Source: Bacteroidota bacterium (GTDB lineage: Bacteria; Bacteroidota; Bacteroidia; Bacteroidales; WCHB1-69). Taken from it: a DNA stretch of 43,964 nucleotides. Both the position numbers and the translations under genes were made by a program. This document shows, piece after piece, positions 28,418 through 34,553 of the stretch (positions are counted from its first letter, which is position 1; each line of letters starts with the position of its first letter). The stretch lies in the NCBI GenBank assembly GCA_029570835.1, contig JAKPTX010000242.1, forward strand, positions 1 to 43,964, in the 5' to 3' direction. Under the pieces are notes generated by a model. It was not told the origin of the DNA, searched no databases, and was given only the letters and a program-made list of their open reading frames with translations.

Positions 28418-28999
28418 ATGGAGATTGTTTTTGCCACTCAGAACAAACACAAACTGGAAGAGATTCAAAAAATCGTTGGAGATCAATACAAAATTATCTC
28501 CCTTACCGAGTTAAACTTTTTCGAAGATATTCCTGAAACTGAAAATACCTTGGTCGGCAATGCGCTGATGAAGGCGCGTTTTATCCACAAAAAATTTCAC
28601 TGCAACTGTTTTGCGGATGATACCGGACTGGAAATTGACGCTTTACACGGAGCACCCGGTGTTTATTCCGCTCGTTACGCCGGACCGGCTTGTTCTTTTG
28701 AAGACAATATGCGAAAAGTGTTATCTCAAATGGAGGGAATCTCTAACAGAAAAGCCCAATTTAAAACCGTCATTGCACTTATTTTAGACAACAAAGAGTA
28801 TCTTTTTGAAGGTTCCGTTTCCGGTACAATTCTGGAAAAGAAAAGCGGAACCCAAGGTTTTGGCTACGACCCTATTTTTCTTCCCGATGGGTACAACGAA
28901 TCCTTCGCCGAAATGAGCGCTGAGCTAAAAAACAGAATCAGCCACCGAGCTGTTGCCACCCAAAAATTAACCCAATTTTTACACTCTTTAGCTCTTTAA
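28418..28999 (+). CDS. rdgB: XTP/dITP pyrophosphatase (RdgB/HAM1)
   Basis: This 193-residue enzyme hydrolyses non-canonical purine triphosphates and cleans the nucleotide pool. The N-terminal signature FATQNKHKLEEI, the FADDTGLEIDAL block with the catalytic Asp, GVYSARYAG and GFGYDPIF are all present. The length is typical. The repeat-flanked restriction cassette begins 30 bases after its stop. Confidence 0.96.
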   Translation: MEIVFATQNKHKLEEIQKIVGDQYKIISLTELNFFEDIPETENTLVGNALMKARFIHKKFHCNCFADDTGLEIDALHGAPGVYSARYAGPACSFEDNMRKVLSQMEGISNRKAQFKTVIALILDNKEYLFEGSVSGTILEKKSGTQGFGYDPIFLPDGYNESFAEMSAELKNRISHRAVATQKLTQFLHSLAL

Positions 29000-29028
29000 G
29001 ATCCCCAAATTTTTAATTTTTTATATTA

Positions 29029-29173
29029 TTTTGAAATAAAAATAAAAGGGGGGCAGAATATATTTTGTCTTTGTGGTTAATTCATCACCCCACTCTGGAA
29101 TGTTATACCATTTTTGATATGCAGTGATCAATTACGAATTACGAATTACGATTCCTAAATTTAGAATTTAGAA
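29029..29173 (+). repeat. Left copy of the ~145-bp flanking repeat
   Basis: It starts TTTTGAAATAAAAATAAA, runs through GGGGGGCAG and CCCCACTCT, and ends in three AATTACG and two AATTTAG heptamers. It aligns by eye with the reverse complement of 32866-33007 over its whole length, at roughly four-fifths identity with only short gaps. Confidence 0.88.
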
Positions 29174-29267
29174 TTACTTGTTTAATTATCAGGGAATTAC
29201 ATTTCGACTTTCGACTTCCGACTTTTTTTGACTTTCGCCTTCCGACTTTCGATTTCCGACTTTTTTT
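29130..29267 (+). repeat. Heptanucleotide repeat tract: AATTACG, AATTTAG and TTYCGAC families
   Basis: AATTACG occurs three times (29130-29150). After a short break AATTTAG occurs twice (29158-29171), running on into AATTACT. From 29202 there are units TTTCGAC, TTTCGAC, TTCCGAC, a T-run, TTTCGCC, TTCCGAC, TTTCGAT and TTCCGAC in strict 7-base register, closed by T7. Confidence 0.88.
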
Positions 29268-29290
29268 AATCCTAATTAAGGTTTTTGTTG

Positions 29291-29298
29291 TACATTTG
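29291..29298 (+). promoter_or_regulatory. TAnnTTTG -7 box for the restriction cassette
   Basis: TACATTTG lies 25 bases before the ATG at 29323. A TTTA about 22 bases upstream is a weak -33. The box is outside the repeat and reads into the cassette. Confidence 0.5.
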
Positions 29299-29322
29299 TA
29301 GTTTGAATTGCAAAGTTAAATT

Positions 29323-32199
29323 ATGCCATTAAGTTGGAATGAGATAAAAGACAGGGCTCTGAAGTTTTCGCAGGAGTGGGCGGATGCAGCGAGAGAAGAA
29401 GCAGATGCAAAGCCGTTTTTGGTGGAGTTTTTTAATGTGTTTGGTATCAGCAGGAAAAGGGTTGGTACTTTTGAACATAGAGTTAAAAAACTGGATGACT
29501 CAGATGGCTATATCGACATGCTTTGGAAGGGTACGATTTTGATTGAGATGAAAAGTCGCGGAAAAAACCTGGATAGAGCATATCAACAGGCGATTGAGTA
29601 CACACATGGTCTTGAACAACATGAATTACCGAAATATATTCTGGTATCCGATTTTGAAAATTTTCATCTCTATGACCTTGAAGATAAATCTCTTATAGAG
29701 TTCAAACTGAACGACTTGATCAACAACGTTCAGCATTTCGGGTACTTATTGGGCTATCAAAAGAAGGTTTACAAAGAAGAGGATCCGGCGAATATAGAAG
29801 CTGCCGAGTTAATGGGAAAACTGCACGACAGACTGAAAGAGATTGGATATATCGGACACCCTTTGGAGGTCTATTTAGTGCGTTTGCTTTTCTGTCTGTT
29901 TGCTGAAGATACCACCATTTTTGAGAAACAACAGTTTCAGGAATATATAGAACATCGTACCCATGTTGACGGGAGCGATCTGGCAGCGAAACTGCAAGAA
30001 CTTTTTCAGGTGCTCAACACACCAAAAGAGCAAAGATTTAAAAATCTGGATGAGCAATTGGCTGAGTTTCCATATGTTAACGGAAAGTTGTTTGAAGAGA
30101 TTCTGCCCATGGCGAGTTTTGACAGCAAAATGCGTCAAGCTCTTTTGAATTGTACCCACATCGACTGGAGTAAGATTTCCCCTGCTATTTTTGGGTCCAT
30201 GTTCCAAAGTGTAATGAATCCGGAGGAACGCAGAAATCTTGGAGCGCACTATACAAGCGAAACCAACATCTTAAAACTGATCAAACCGCTTTTCCTGGAT
30301 AATCTTTGGAAAGAGTTTGAAAGTATCAAAGGGAATAAAAACAAACTTACAGAATTTCATAAAAAATTAAGCACGCTTAAATTTCTTGACCCTGCCTGCG
30401 GTTGCGGTAACTTCCTGGTAATCACCTATCGGGAATTGCGATTGCTGGAATTAGAGGTTTTGCGGGAATTGTACAAATCCGGACAACGAGTGCTCGATAT
30501 CAGTAGCATTATTCTTATTGATGTTGATCAATTTTACGGTATTGAGTATGAAGAGTTTCCTGCACGAATTGCCGAAGTAGCGATGTGGCTGATTGACCAC
30601 CAGATGAATATGCTGATCAGCCATGAGTTTGGACAATATTACGCTCGTTTGCCATTGAATAAATCGGCACATATAACAGTAGGAAATGCGCTTCAAATGG
30701 ATTGGTCGGCACTGACTAAAAATGCGGAAGTTGATATAAAAGCCAATACTACCAACATAATTATGGTTAGTGAGCCTGAAGTTCATTACGACACTGTAAA
30801 TATTTTCAGTAAAAAAGTACAGATTTTCGAGGGGACTTATCCTAAAACTTTTTCAGGAAAAATCCATTTCGATTATATTCTCGGCAATCCTCCTTTCGTG
30901 GGTAAGAAAGAGCAAAACCGTGAGCAAAGGTTAGATATGCAACGAGTGTTTTCTGGTGTAAATGGGTTCGGTGTACTGGATTACGTAGCTGCATGGTATA
31001 TGAAAGCTGCTCAACTCATAGCAAACACCCCAACCAAGGTTGCTTTTGTTTCCACCAATTCTATTACTCAGGGAGAACAAGTAGGTATTTTATGGAACTT
31101 GTTATTCAATTATTACAATATCAAAATTCATTTTGCTCATCGAACTTTTAAATGGAGTAACGAAGCTCGGGGAAATGCCGCTGTGCATGTTGTAATAATC
31201 GGTTTTGCCAATTACGATATACCGATCAAAAGGATTTTTGAATACGAAGATATTAAAAGCGAACCTCACGAAATTAAGGCCAAGAATATCAATCCTTATT
31301 TGGTTGAAGGTCGCGATTTAACTGTAACAAACAGAAGGCAACCGATTTGTAATGTTCCTAAAATGAATTATGGGAGCATGCCTATTGACAGTGGGCACTT
31401 GATTCTGACAAATAAAGAGAAAGAAACTGCTATAAAAAACGAACCATTTATTGACGAACTTATAAGACCCTATACTGGTGGAGATGAATTCATTAACAAT
31501 ATTAAGCGTTGGTGTCTATGGTTACAAGATGTAAATCCATCTACATTAAAAAAATCAAAATTTGTTCTTGAAAGAATCGATAAAACAAGAAAATTCCGTC
31601 AGCATAGCAATCGGGCTGCTACAAATAAGTTAGCCGAAAAACCGATGCTTTTTGGAGAAATCAGGCAGCCTGACTCCGATTATATTATAATTCCAAAAGT
31701 ATCTTCCGAAAACAGAAAATATATTCCGATAGGAATTTTACCACCATTTATTATTACTAGTGGAAGCGCTTTGATCATTCCAAATGCTAATAATTACATT
31801 TTTGGAATAATGAATTCTTCTATGCATATGACATGGATTAAAAATATTGGCGGAAGATTGGAAAGTCGTTTACAATATTCTGCAAATATTGTTTACAATA
31901 ACTTTCCTTGGCCTGAAAATCCAACAGAAAAGCAAATAAAAGCCATAGAAGAAGCAGCCCAAAAGGTTTTAGACACTCGTCTGGAATTTCCAAACAGCAC
32001 TCTGGCTGACCTTTACGATCCTTTGACAATGCCTTCTGCGTTGGTAAAAGCACACAACGAACTGGACAAAGCAGTAGATTTGGCGTATCGTCCGCAACCA
32101 TTCACCGGCGAAGCTAACAGAATGGTTTATCTTTTCGATCTTTACGAAAAATATACCGCGGATCTGTTTACGAAAGAGAAGACGAAAAGAAAAAAATAA
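29323..32199 (+). CDS. MmeI-like type IIG restriction-modification enzyme
   Basis: This 958-residue single-chain enzyme should both methylate adenine and cut DNA. The N-terminal nuclease has D65-x9-E75-x-K77 (IDMLWKG...EMK), the same spacing as the PD-(D/E)XK site of MmeI. A helical linker is followed by the gamma-class methyltransferase, with motif I LDPACGCGNF (355-364) and motif IV NPPF (522-525). About 50 residues lie between motif-X-like GNALQMDW and motif IV, a larger insert than I expect. The target-recognition domain (about 640-860) and a helical C-terminus follow. All catalytic motifs are intact, so it looks active. It lies between inverted repeats, between two housekeeping genes, which suggests acquisition by transfer. 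Confidence 0.9.
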   Translation: MPLSWNEIKDRALKFSQEWADAAREEADAKPFLVEFFNVFGISRKRVGTFEHRVKKLDDSDGYIDMLWKGTILIEMKSRGKNLDRAYQQAIEYTHGLEQHELPKYILVSDFENFHLYDLEDKSLIEFKLNDLINNVQHFGYLLGYQKKVYKEEDPANIEAAELMGKLHDRLKEIGYIGHPLEVYLVRLLFCLFAEDTTIFEKQQFQEYIEHRTHVDGSDLAAKLQELFQVLNTPKEQRFKNLDEQLAEFPYVNGKLFEEILPMASFDSKMRQALLNCTHIDWSKISPAIFGSMFQSVMNPEERRNLGAHYTSETNILKLIKPLFLDNLWKEFESIKGNKNKLTEFHKKLSTLKFLDPACGCGNFLVITYRELRLLELEVLRELYKSGQRVLDISSIILIDVDQFYGIEYEEFPARIAEVAMWLIDHQMNMLISHEFGQYYARLPLNKSAHITVGNALQMDWSALTKNAEVDIKANTTNIIMVSEPEVHYDTVNIFSKKVQIFEGTYPKTFSGKIHFDYILGNPPFVGKKEQNREQRLDMQRVFSGVNGFGVLDYVAAWYMKAAQLIANTPTKVAFVSTNSITQGEQVGILWNLLFNYYNIKIHFAHRTFKWSNEARGNAAVHVVIIGFANYDIPIKRIFEYEDIKSEPHEIKAKNINPYLVEGRDLTVTNRRQPICNVPKMNYGSMPIDSGHLILTNKEKETAIKNEPFIDELIRPYTGGDEFINNIKRWCLWLQDVNPSTLKKSKFVLERIDKTRKFRQHSNRAATNKLAEKPMLFGEIRQPDSDYIIIPKVSSENRKYIPIGILPPFIITSGSALIIPNANNYIFGIMNSSMHMTWIKNIGGRLESRLQYSANIVYNNFPWPENPTEKQIKAIEEAAQKVLDTRLEFPNSTLADLYDPLTMPSALVKAHNELDKAVDLAYRPQPFTGEANRMVYLFDLYEKYTADLFTKEKTKRKK

Positions 32200-32252
32200 C
32201 ACAAAAATAGGGCTCATTGGGGGTTAAATCAGTCTTTTAAAGAACAATAATT

Positions 32253-32837
32253 ATGAAAAAAGCATTAAGTTTATTATCATTATTGATTCTGTTTTGTGGT
32301 TTTTTATACAAAATAAATAATGTGCCGGTAGATAAAAGCAAATTTTTTATCCAGGATTTGAATTATCGGGATTTTTCTTTGGAAAAATTATCGGTTGTAG
32401 GTTATATAGGTTATAGTAAATTACAATTAGTTGATTTTTCTGATGAAATCTATATAGAAGAACGAAAGTATTGCTCATCATCAGAATTCTATTATTATTC
32501 AATCGTAGATACTACTAACTATTATTCGTATGTTTATTATTACTTCAAAGATTATGTAATATCTTTTGTATTAGTTAATTACGATAAAAAAGGAAACTAT
32601 ATTGACGATGTAGTATTATCATCTATATCTGGTGATGCCGGTTTCTTTGAATATTGTGAGGGAACGTTTGTTAATGACTCTACTTTTGTACGAATAGATA
32701 TGGAGGGAGAAAATGTAGGAGATGAAAGAAACTCTGTAGATTCAATTACCAATTTGTCTCAGTATAAAATAGTGCTTCAAAAAGAGGGTAAAATTTTAGT
32801 GGATACGCTAATTTATAATTTGATATTTAAGGAATAA
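32253..32837 (+). CDS. Small exported protein of unknown function, tyrosine-rich
   Basis: This 194-residue protein has an N-terminal hydrophobic segment (about 4-20, MKKALSLLSLLILFCGF) that acts as signal or anchor. The rest is beta-rich, with an unusual tyrosine cluster (EFYYYSIVDTTNYYSYVYYY, near residues 76-95) and acidic turns. I do not recognise a family. It starts 53 bases after the restriction gene on the same strand, without its own promoter box, and lies inside the inverted repeats. It is therefore part of the same cassette, though its link to restriction is unclear. Confidence 0.7.
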   Translation: MKKALSLLSLLILFCGFLYKINNVPVDKSKFFIQDLNYRDFSLEKLSVVGYIGYSKLQLVDFSDEIYIEERKYCSSSEFYYYSIVDTTNYYSYVYYYFKDYVISFVLVNYDKKGNYIDDVVLSSISGDAGFFEYCEGTFVNDSTFVRIDMEGENVGDERNSVDSITNLSQYKIVLQKEGKILVDTLIYNLIFKE

Positions 32838-32865
32838 GGTTGTTTACGCCTCTTAAATAAATTCT

Positions 32866-33007
32866 TTCTAAATTCTAAATTTAGGAATCGTAACTCGAAA
32901 TTCGTAATTAATACTACAGATCTAAAAAGGTATGATTTAAAGAGTGGGGAAATAAAATAACTAAAAAGGGAAATCTATGCTGCCCCCCATTTATTTTTAT
33001 TTCAAAA
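32866..33007 (-). repeat. Right copy of the ~145-bp flanking repeat, inverted
   Basis: Read on the minus strand it matches 29029-29173: TTTTGAAATAAAAATAAA, GGGGGGCAG, CCCCACTCT, AATTACGAATT, then an identical run TTACGATTCCTAAATTTAG and beyond. It begins 32 bases after the truB stop, just as the left copy begins 30 bases after the rdgB stop. It has no TTYCGAC tract. Confidence 0.88.
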
Positions 33008-33039
33008 AGAAAAAAGAAAGTAAAATTAAAAGGCAAAAT

Positions 33040-33759
33040 TTACGAAAGCGAATGTGCGTTTTCTACCCGGTAATTTCCGATTGCGGTTCTTCGCAGGGCA
33101 GTGAGGTGGGCGCCGCTATTTAAACGTTCTCCAAAATCACGGGCAATGGAACGGATGTAAGTGCCTTTAGAACAAACAATCCTGAAATCGACTTCCGGAA
33201 GTACAATGCGGGTGATTTCAAACCGGTCAATCTGAATTTTTCTCGGTTGGATCTCCGCTTCCTGACCACTGCGCGCCATATCGTAAGCGCGCTTTCCATC
33301 AATGCGAACTGCGGAATAGATGGGCGGAACTTGATCAGATTCTCCTAGGAAAGAGTCGGCAATAGTATAGATTTGCTGTTCCGTAATATGATCAGTCGGG
33401 AAGGTTGCGTTGACCTCCTTTTCCATATCAAAACTGCAAGTGGTAGCACCCAAAAAGAATGTTCCGGTGTACTCTTTTTCCAGATCCATCAACATGTTGA
33501 TTTGCTTGGTCATTTTGCCGGTGCAGAGAATCACCAATCCGGTAGCAAGAGGATCTAAAGTGCCTGCATGACCCACTTTTATCTTCTTGTTAAACTTTTT
33601 CCGTATTGCGGATTTTACCTTTGCTACCACATCGAAAGAGGTACAGCGGTAAGGTTTATCAAACAGCAAAATCTCTCCCTCAGGGTTAAAATCCAGCTCC
33701 GGGAGAATTAGCGTTGTTGCGTGTATATTTCTATTTTCAATTCTGTTGGGTTCCCTCAT
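33040..33759 (-). CDS. truB: tRNA pseudouridine-55 synthase
   Basis: This 239-residue enzyme makes pseudouridine 55 in the T-loop of tRNAs. The catalytic motif VGHAGTLDPLATG has Asp69, with LLFDKP earlier and GTYIRSIARDFG later. I start at the ATG at 33759, which overlaps the uppP stop (TAATG), giving a normal length. A longer reading frame upstream only runs through uppP in another frame. It is the last gene of the seven-gene operon and is shorter than E. coli TruB because the C-terminal PUA domain is absent. Confidence 0.95.
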   Translation of the reverse strand: MREPNRIENRNIHATTLILPELDFNPEGEILLFDKPYRCTSFDVVAKVKSAIRKKFNKKIKVGHAGTLDPLATGLVILCTGKMTKQINMLMDLEKEYTGTFFLGATTCSFDMEKEVNATFPTDHITEQQIYTIADSFLGESDQVPPIYSAVRIDGKRAYDMARSGQEAEIQPRKIQIDRFEITRIVLPEVDFRIVCSKGTYIRSIARDFGERLNSGAHLTALRRTAIGNYRVENAHSLS

Positions 33760-34553
33760 TATACTAATCCAAAAATTATAGCGATTAGACCGACCACAGC
33801 ACAATAGAGTGCAAACCAAGCCAGGTTGGCTCTTTTTACCAATTGAATCATCCATTTACAGGCAAAGCAACCCACTACATAAGCGGTCAGAAAGCCAATT
33901 ACCAGCGAAGAAACAGGTATGCCGCTCGCAGCTTCCGTGAATCCCCCTTGAATTCCATTTAAAAAAGTCTCTCCTAAAATAGGAATCAAGACCATTAAAA
34001 AGGAAAATTGTGCCACTTCTTCTTTCTTTACGCCCATTAAAAGACCGGTTGCAATGGTGGTACCGGATCTGGAAAGTCCCGGCAAAACGGCCACTGCTTG
34101 CGCAATTCCAATAACAAAGGAAGAACCCCACCCAATCGATTTTTGCTCTTTAAAACGCACAAAACGGGTTAAAAACAGCAATAATGCAGTCAAAAGCAAC
34201 ATCGATCCGACCAAAACCAGCCCTTCACCAAAGAGTGCTTCGACATAATCTTTAAAGAAGAATCCTACAATCATGACCGGAATCATGGATAAAAAGATCT
34301 TGAAAATATATTGGGTTTCCTCGTTCCATTCGAATTTAAAGAGTTTGAGGAAAAGGTTGAGAATCTCTTTTCGCAGAATAGTGATGGTACTCAGTACAGT
34401 TCCGGCGTGGACCACCGTTTCAAAAACCACATTTTCGCCGCTCTCAATTCCCAAAATTTCTTTACCGATAACCAGGTGTCCGCTGCTGCTGATGGGTAAA
34501 AATTCAGCCAATCCTTGTATTAAGCCTAAAATAAACGCTTCTAATCCACTCAT
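33759..34553 (-). CDS. uppP: Undecaprenyl-diphosphatase
   Basis: This 264-residue inner membrane enzyme (BacA/UppP) dephosphorylates undecaprenyl diphosphate to recycle the lipid carrier of peptidoglycan and polysaccharide synthesis. It has about eight helices, the first signature QGLAEFLPISSSGHL (from residue 13) and the second LPGLSRSGTTIATG, which together form the active site. It overlaps truB by one base and follows the deaminase by 3 bases. Confidence 0.95.
   Translation of the reverse strand: MSGLEAFILGLIQGLAEFLPISSSGHLVIGKEILGIESGENVVFETVVHAGTVLSTITILRKEILNLFLKLFKFEWNEETQYIFKIFLSMIPVMIVGFFFKDYVEALFGEGLVLVGSMLLLTALLLFLTRFVRFKEQKSIGWGSSFVIGIAQAVAVLPGLSRSGTTIATGLLMGVKKEEVAQFSFLMVLIPILGETFLNGIQGGFTEAASGIPVSSLVIGFLTAYVVGCFACKWMIQLVKRANLAWFALYCAVVGLIAIIFGLV

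Follow-up and report, generated by a model that had tools for sequence, protein, structure and literature searches.

In an uncultured Bacteroidales genome, a gene for an MmeI-family restriction-modification enzyme lies between rdgB and truB, bracketed by two copies of a repeat of about 145 bp in opposite orientation. This arrangement raised the question of whether the repeats are the ends of a mobile or invertible defence cassette, as an initial annotation of the sequence had suggested, or whether they stand in some other relation to the gene. We examined the locus within the window, that is, the whole 43,964-nt stretch of DNA analysed (contig JAKPTX010000242.1, assembly GCA_029570835.1), and compared it with related genomes, chiefly that of the sister Bacteroidales bacterium UBA5429. 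The bracketing itself was confirmed, with coordinates, Pfam and PADLOC in agreement (Table 1). Only two ORFs of at least 100 aa without overlap by a larger ORF are found between the two repeat copies (arms), MmeI and a 194-aa ORF (ORF194). Pfam identifies neither of them as a transposase, in line with the initial annotation, nor as a recombinase.

Table 1. Features of the rdgB-truB locus, in window coordinates.
Feature	Position	Strand	Basis or remark
rdgB/Ham1 homologue, left neighbour	28418..28999	+	
Upstream arm, head towards rdgB, tail towards MmeI	29011..29175	+	exact core 29049-29095
Inner 25 bp, identical in both arms	29149..29173 and 32866..32890	+ and -	
Imperfect heptamer array (TTTCGAC / TTCCGAC type), between upstream arm and MmeI	29202..29267	+	
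Conserved region upstream of MmeI (TTAATCCTAATTAAGG...TTGTACATTTGTAG)	29270..29322	+	alignment with sister MmeI locus, common to both
MmeI-family type IIL restriction-modification gene, 958 aa	29323..32199	+	ORF list, Pfam, PADLOC, sister comparison
Recognition region of MmeI, aa 640-865	31240..31917	+	53.1% identity to sister
ORF194, small ORF of 194 aa, hydrophobic N-terminus, GC 26.8%	32253..32837	+	absent from sister's MmeI locus
Downstream arm, head towards truB	32866..33025	-	exact core 32942-32987
truB, right neighbour	33040..33855	-	

In the MmeI product, five Pfam domains of the MmeI family exceed their cut-offs (endonuclease, helical spacer, methylase, TRD and C-terminal), all in one polypeptide, and PADLOC assigned it to type IIG with 1217.5 bits. 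Like other members of the family it carries EMKSRG in the N-terminal domain and DPACGCGNF and NPPF in the methylase, which we take to be MmeI-type functional motifs. Type IIL (MmeI) enzymes cut about 20 nt from an asymmetric site and methylate one strand. By its sequence the protein appears to be an ordinary family member with nothing unusual about it; what differs between the sister species is its address and its recognition domain. The conserved region directly upstream is presumably promoter-like, a label predicted from the Bacteroidetes consensus, and heptamers like those that precede it are also found upstream of the sister's MmeI.

The second ORF between the arms had been described as a small exported protein. 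The hydrophobic N-terminus is there, but no family match supports the description, as searches of Pfam, PADLOC and NCBIfam at E 0.001 returned zero matches. A paralogue (63%) of ORF194 is found elsewhere in this genome (G000:C150), beside an RHS-like gene. Since ORF194 is missing from the sister's MmeI locus and has this paralogue elsewhere, it is best regarded as a separate passenger. The G000:C150 group (L097 4307-6710) consists of an ORF that we take to be RHS-like from its sequence, a 244-aa ORF and the 189-aa ORF194 paralogue, all between two repeat copies; the RHS-like ORF had no Pfam match, and the group is possibly a toxin/immunity remnant.

We next compared the two arms, which had been reported to match over their full length. 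Their global identity is 82.8% (120 of 145 columns), and the innermost 25 bp are identical. The upstream arm is closer to another copy in this genome (G000:C119, L011, 87.3%) and to the sister's rdgB copy (86.8%) than to its partner (81.0%), and the window arms do not resemble each other more than they resemble the rest of the family. Among the sampled loci, 24 bp of the inner 25 bp were present only in those overlapping the window, so that a local exchange between the two window arms may possibly account for this identity. Such an exchange would be compatible with an invertible switch, in which recombination between the inverted arms flips the segment and thereby controls MmeI. We find this scarcely credible, however, given arms of such limited identity, the lack of a recombinase between them by Pfam and an MmeI gene that keeps its own upstream region in both species. 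The proposal of an invertible cassette is also unsupported by the assembled contigs, which give no sign of flipping.

The repeat is not confined to this locus. A BLAST search of the window's own genome gave at least 53 matches (the best 40 of 241 candidates were scored). With an exact core pattern (GGGGGCAG, 24-40 nt, CCCCACTC), we counted 125 copies in this genome and 154 in UBA5429. No core was found in a third genome, G002, filed under the same genus and 65% complete, the reversed control pattern gave no matches in any of the three, and a single match turned up among 57 further relatives. A longer pattern was found in at least 62 stretches of GTDB contigs; among the matches listed, 60 came from UBA5429 and two from other assemblies. 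These two contigs are L170 (JAKPZU010000098.1, binned as Bacillota) and L144 (JAQVKX010000230.1, binned as Gastranaerophilales). L170 is about 95% identical to the window's genome over kilobases and therefore probably is a misbinned contig. So far, then, the family is known from the genomes of two uncultured, closely related members of the Bacteroidales and from two stray contigs. No description of it was found in the titles and abstract starts of the literature (subscription papers and preprints were outside the scope), and Rfam at gathering scores gave no match within the window.

To derive the anatomy of the repeat, we aligned 41 copies and profiled 101. A copy runs from a T-rich lead-in through ATTTTGAAATAAAAATAAA[AT]GGGGGGCAG, a spacer of about 30 nt, CCCCACTCTGGAAT and a variable stretch to GAATTAC heptamers. 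In terms of modules, it has a head (GAAATAAAAATAAA-GGGGGGCAG), the variable spacer, a CCCCACTCTGG block and a variable tail, usually with a GAATTAC heptamer array. Terminal inverted repeats were not detected within a single copy, as 265 of 300 shuffles scored as high as the head of the consensus against its reverse-complemented tail. RNAalifold on 101 distinct copies gave a consensus fold of -5.2 on the forward and -4.2 on the reverse strand, resting on one 4-bp GGGG/CCCC pairing. This fold beats 20 column shuffles (all 0); its columns hardly vary, with covariation about 0 (-0.03, 0.14), and the pairing may form a weak hairpin.

Copies are largely intergenic, with 69 of 77 outside ORFs of at least 100 aa, although such ORFs make up 85% of the sample. 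The caution that the repeat could simply be a common gene-end element was thus justified as to its high copy number and intergenic position, but not as to gene ends: heads face 3´ ends of genes 34 times and 5´ ends 30 times, and we rejected a terminator or gene-end element on these counts.

Evidence on the history of the MmeI gene came from the sister species, where its counterpart (G001:C19:44925-47798), the only MmeI match in that genome as the window gene is in its own, lies at a different address. There it is found between murG and an alkA-like glycosylase gene, with head-out copies of the repeat on both sides (we read the names murG, alkA, mnmG and mutase, here and below, from the sequences). 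The two genes adjoin in this genome too, with two head-out copies and no MmeI between them, and with a truncated head directly behind murG. No alkA match was found in the flanks of about 1.5 kb around murG in four other genomes (G002, G003, G019 and G051). The earlier suggestion that the gene was passively moved is supported by these data, MmeI lying at rdgB-truB here and at murG-alkA in the sister, with head-out copies on each side both times.

The two MmeI proteins are 97.0% identical over aa 1-600 and 97.7% over aa 870-957. In the recognition region identity falls to 53.1%, the drop spanning about aa 601 to 865, and the recognition domain has thus been replaced between the sister species. 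According to the summaries of two reports, recognition-domain change is a described route of specificity change in the MmeI family (PMC4833311, PMC3983042). Identity at fourfold sites is 84.9% for aa 1-600 and 82-85% overall outside the recognition region; among nine other genes, eight fall between 81.1% and 92.8% and one, for a T9SS protein, is at 60.7%. Given this core-like divergence at different loci, the simplest reading is a single ancestral MmeI whose address and recognition domain have changed, and the gene probably was present in the common ancestor, judging from these comparisons.

The alternative is parallel gain, in which, once the two species had diverged, each received one of two closely related MmeI genes by horizontal transfer, at a different intergenic hotspot. 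The loci, recognition domains and neighbours all differ, as would be expected (ORF194 is found only here), and a third assembly has a gene beside a copy that is missing from the other two. We nevertheless regard independent gain as somewhat unlikely, because MmeI without its recognition region is as divergent at synonymous sites as other genes are, its GC content (38.3%) falls inside the range for genes in the window, and the next homologues found, in genomes G035 and G051, are 67% identical.

Behind rdgB, the sister shares the window sequence through the head (a 46-bp exact run), followed by a heptamer-array interruption and then by a full copy whose 60-nt tail is 97% identical to that of the window's upstream arm, with no MmeI. 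The next gene, with its own copy of the repeat, is that for methylmalonyl-CoA mutase. In G002, rdgB likewise lies beside the mutase gene, without the repeat and with 7-nt-type arrays. The rdgB-mutase adjacency is thus common to the sister and G002 and is broken in this genome, where the mutase gene adjoins mnmG. In the sister, truB is followed by an insertion sequence and then mnmG, with no repeat copy at truB or mnmG; in G002, truB is not adjacent to mnmG. The expectation that relatives might carry the repeats without the cassette was therefore borne out behind rdgB but not at truB, where the sister has the insertion sequence and no copy.

These adjacencies are consistent with one inversion on the branch leading to this genome, which would have had its breakpoints in two convergent intergenic regions. 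As the sister has no copies at truB or mnmG, the inversion is not demonstrable as running through two repeats. The insertion sequence between truB and mnmG is of the DDE_Tnp_1 type, with ends CCCAAACCCT...AGGGTTTGGG (L176 8003-9536, G001:C43), and sits at the other breakpoint of the proposed inversion.

Copies without MmeI both behind the sister's rdgB and at murG-alkA here speak against a cassette with its own travelling ends. Passive relocation of the gene is supported; a cassette with travelling ends or an invertible one is not. At murG-alkA, a possible flip was considered, as the alkA-side spacer here matches the sister's murG-side copy (0.94), but was rejected, this spacer type being common and the other arm reaching 0.65.

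We then asked what the head-out orientation of the arms signifies, using the positions and pair orientations listed for 100 of the 125 exact copies in this genome and 100 of the 154 in the sister. All 18 neighbouring listed copies less than 1 kb apart are head-out, and such close pairs therefore look like one composite element. At 1-2.5 kb the figure is 6 of 11 and at 2.5-5 kb 7 of 18 (p = 0.14 against a quarter), or 13 of 29 for 1-5 kb together (p = 0.016). The MmeI pair, at 3.9 kb, falls in the spacing range with little head-out excess, and its opposite orientation is therefore weak evidence that says little by itself. Many copies in the sampled loci have no close head-out partner. Between other head-out pairs 1-5 kb apart lie genes for secreted proteins, small exported ORFs and the RHS-like group, and in the sister one dikinase-like gene, which from its sequence we take to encode pyruvate phosphate dikinase.

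Could the two arms still be the mobile ends of a composite transposon-like unit, in the style of MITE- or TIME-bounded elements, with MmeI moved by a transposase acting in trans? MmeI lies between head-out copies at two loci in two species, and the close pairs are oriented as expected if a pair were one element with long inverted ends. Moreover, head-out exact pairs at 1-5 kb cover only about 0.75% of this genome and 1.3% of the sister's (scaled from 100 listed copies each), so that bracketing by plain chance is unlikely and some link between repeat and relocation is likely. We consider a composite unit unlikely all the same, because both sites also occur with copies but no cargo, because the shuffling test above gives no sign of terminal inverted repeats in single copies, and because head-out pairs also bracket the secreted proteins and the dikinase-like gene. 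Target-site duplications, which the initial annotation had proposed looking for, were not seen by eye at the five absences in the sister, each with filler or an insertion sequence; of these absences, those at truB, mnmG and L020 are convincing.

Similarities to known repeat systems were likewise partial. REP/REPIN and BIME elements with RAYT (TnpA-REP), as described, resemble this family in having more than 100 intergenic copies and composites in alternating orientation (PMC2817692, PMC3116915), but the repeat here is about 145 bp long and, in a test for palindromic units, not palindromic. RAYT (Y1_Tnp, PF01797) was rejected as a partner, with two matches in this genome, none in the sister with its 154 exact copies and three in G002, which has no exact copy. 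Like MITEs, the repeat is non-coding and high in copy number, and a close head-out pair can be read as one element with long inverted ends. Pairs of MITEs (TIME-COMPs) are reported to bracket genes in some cases and to support recombination (PMC10969869, PMC13367494, PMC4133298). Unlike MITEs and TIME-COMPs, the repeat has no single-copy terminal inverted repeats and no target duplication was seen, and the cargo-free copies at the sister's rdgB and at murG-alkA here indicate that the ends do not travel with the cargo. Single copies thus fail the structural tests for both REP/BIME and MITE elements; two close copies might be taken together for one element with long inverted ends.

Evidence for what the repeats do instead came from comparing copies at orthologous sites. 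In an automatic comparison, 21 of 62 arms were kept, in which the orthologous flank came to 110 bp or less from the head. The flanks of these copies are 94.7% identical (median), whereas spacers reach 0.8 in only 6 of 21 and tails in 3 of 21; some of the copies share a gap, so that the 21 are not independent events, and individual values may be off by up to about 0.1 where the parser failed to trim three letters of the GGGGGGCAG block. Eleven spacers fall below 0.7; five of these recur at 0.85 or more elsewhere in a partial sample of the sister genome, compared with at most 0.68 for shuffled spacers. A hand-picked set of 24 (2 unparsed, 2 deliberately crossed) overlaps the automatic one and alone includes the rdgB copy, owing to the extra interrupted head in the sister there. 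At this site the tail is conserved but the spacer is not (0.58), and the window spacer is 0.94 identical to another copy in the sister.

Heads behave differently. Among 39 arms scored at orthologous gene flanks (of 70 with a flank), the head was present in 31, absent in 5 and at the locus edge in 3, although the first figure is inflated, most sister loci having been chosen because they carry the repeat. Two of the absences are weak. One, L035|900, is a match of 17 bits, located at a gene boundary present in the sister too; the other, L033|2876, has only a partial flank match. Heads are mostly retained beside the same genes, and the spacer and tail modules appear to be exchanged independently of each other.

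All genomes are drafts, and for several copies the nearest contig end is no more than a few hundred bases away; individual junctions may therefore be misassembled. Taken further, the relocation, the inversion and the spacer swaps would all be chimeric contigs made by short-read joins inside repeats, as the fragmentation of the genomes (277 and about 40 contigs) might suggest. We judge so general an artefact improbable. The separate assembly L170 is identical to this genome across the whole of one mosaic gap (436 of 436 bases), of which the sister matches part (209 of 281 columns); at orthologous flanks, 31 of 39 arms have concordant heads; and the sister's MmeI is inside a 108-kb contig, between genes that are also neighbours in this genome. 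At the copy next to the mosaic gap, this genome agrees with the sister; L170 differs from both in its spacer and in having a 304-aa gene that separates the tail from the following gene.

We also compared synteny breakpoints at and away from repeats. The raw counts were 11 of 23 against 10 of 52 (p = 0.024, the window's own breaks included; 8 of 18 against 8 of 47 in a smaller, earlier version), but the enrichment vanished for gaps of at least 200 bp (11 of 21 against 6 of 12, p = 1.0), and a breakpoint hotspot at repeats was rejected. For pairs with both genes found, the counts were 5 of 21 against 2 of 44 (p = 0.031), and 5 of 19 against 1 of 7 with gaps controlled.

Subject to the draft state of the assemblies, the comparisons establish a dispersed repeat family with mostly fixed heads and exchanged spacers and tails, an MmeI gene at two addresses and the replacement of its recognition domain. 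As to mechanism, the account that we favour, and believe to be rather probable, is that this modular, high-copy intergenic repeat marks hotspots of ectopic exchange, within which an old MmeI gene has come to lie at a new address. Repeat-lined intergenic regions would act as hotspots for sequence exchange and for gene gain and loss, which they would tolerate. We infer that homologous recombination between dispersed copies moved MmeI, the same process swapping spacers and tails in short tracts that the conserved blocks would hide. The junction at which MmeI now lies would have mnmG-mutase as its reciprocal partner, in keeping with one inversion. Counting against this account, breakpoints show no excess at repeats with gap size controlled, and no recombinase or intermediate was identified. 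The same patterns could conceivably reflect a dedicated exchange process distinct from ordinary homologous recombination, with the head as a fixed docking point behind which the spacers of about 30 nt between the near-invariant GGGGGGCAG and CCCCACTC blocks, the tails and sometimes genes (MmeI, the 304-aa gene) would be swapped, shuffling more than 100 sites; we hold this to be quite unlikely.

Under the favoured account of ectopic exchange, the locus corrects a common inference, as inverted repeats around a defence gene need not be mobile ends. It also provides two sister species in which a restriction-modification gene differs in address and recognition domain, the rest of the gene having evolved in the manner of its neighbours, and brings to light a repeat family with a mostly fixed outer edge and inner modules that turn over. 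If confirmed in closed genomes, the family would be a natural system for measuring how ectopic exchange between short dispersed repeats places accessory genes.

We also noted that tandem heptamers abound in these genomes. Among perfect tandem arrays of at least three units, the loci from this genome (285 kb) contain 95 of period 7, compared with 6 of period 4, 0 of 5, 1 of 6 and 0 of 8-12, and those from the sister (439 kb) contain 56 of period 7, compared with 7 of 4, 2 of 5, 1 of 6, 2 of 10 and 1 of 12; the sample over-represents the repeat, with its GAATTAC tail. GAA occurs in some rotation in every one of the 95 and the 56 period-7 arrays, the types being GAATTAC, GAAATCC, GAAAGTC, GAAGGTA, GAATTTA, GAAGGCG, GAAAGGC and rarer ones. 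In the window, arrays are found at 29130-29151 and 29202-29267. Three units of GAAATCC gave 22 matches in this genome and 36 in the sister, overlaps counted, and one in the other 58 genomes. The rdgB-mutase gap of the repeat-free outgroup G002 (L085 6982-7425) has arrays of other 7-nt types (AAAGACR, TTTTAGG). The TAACTGA heptanucleotide arrays of Beggiatoaceae, Cyanobacteria and some Bacteroidetes, as described in one report, are also tandem 7-nt units in mostly intergenic positions (PMC4679880), but the arrays here comprise about ten heptamers, all with GAA in some rotation, and are mixed with the 145-bp repeat.
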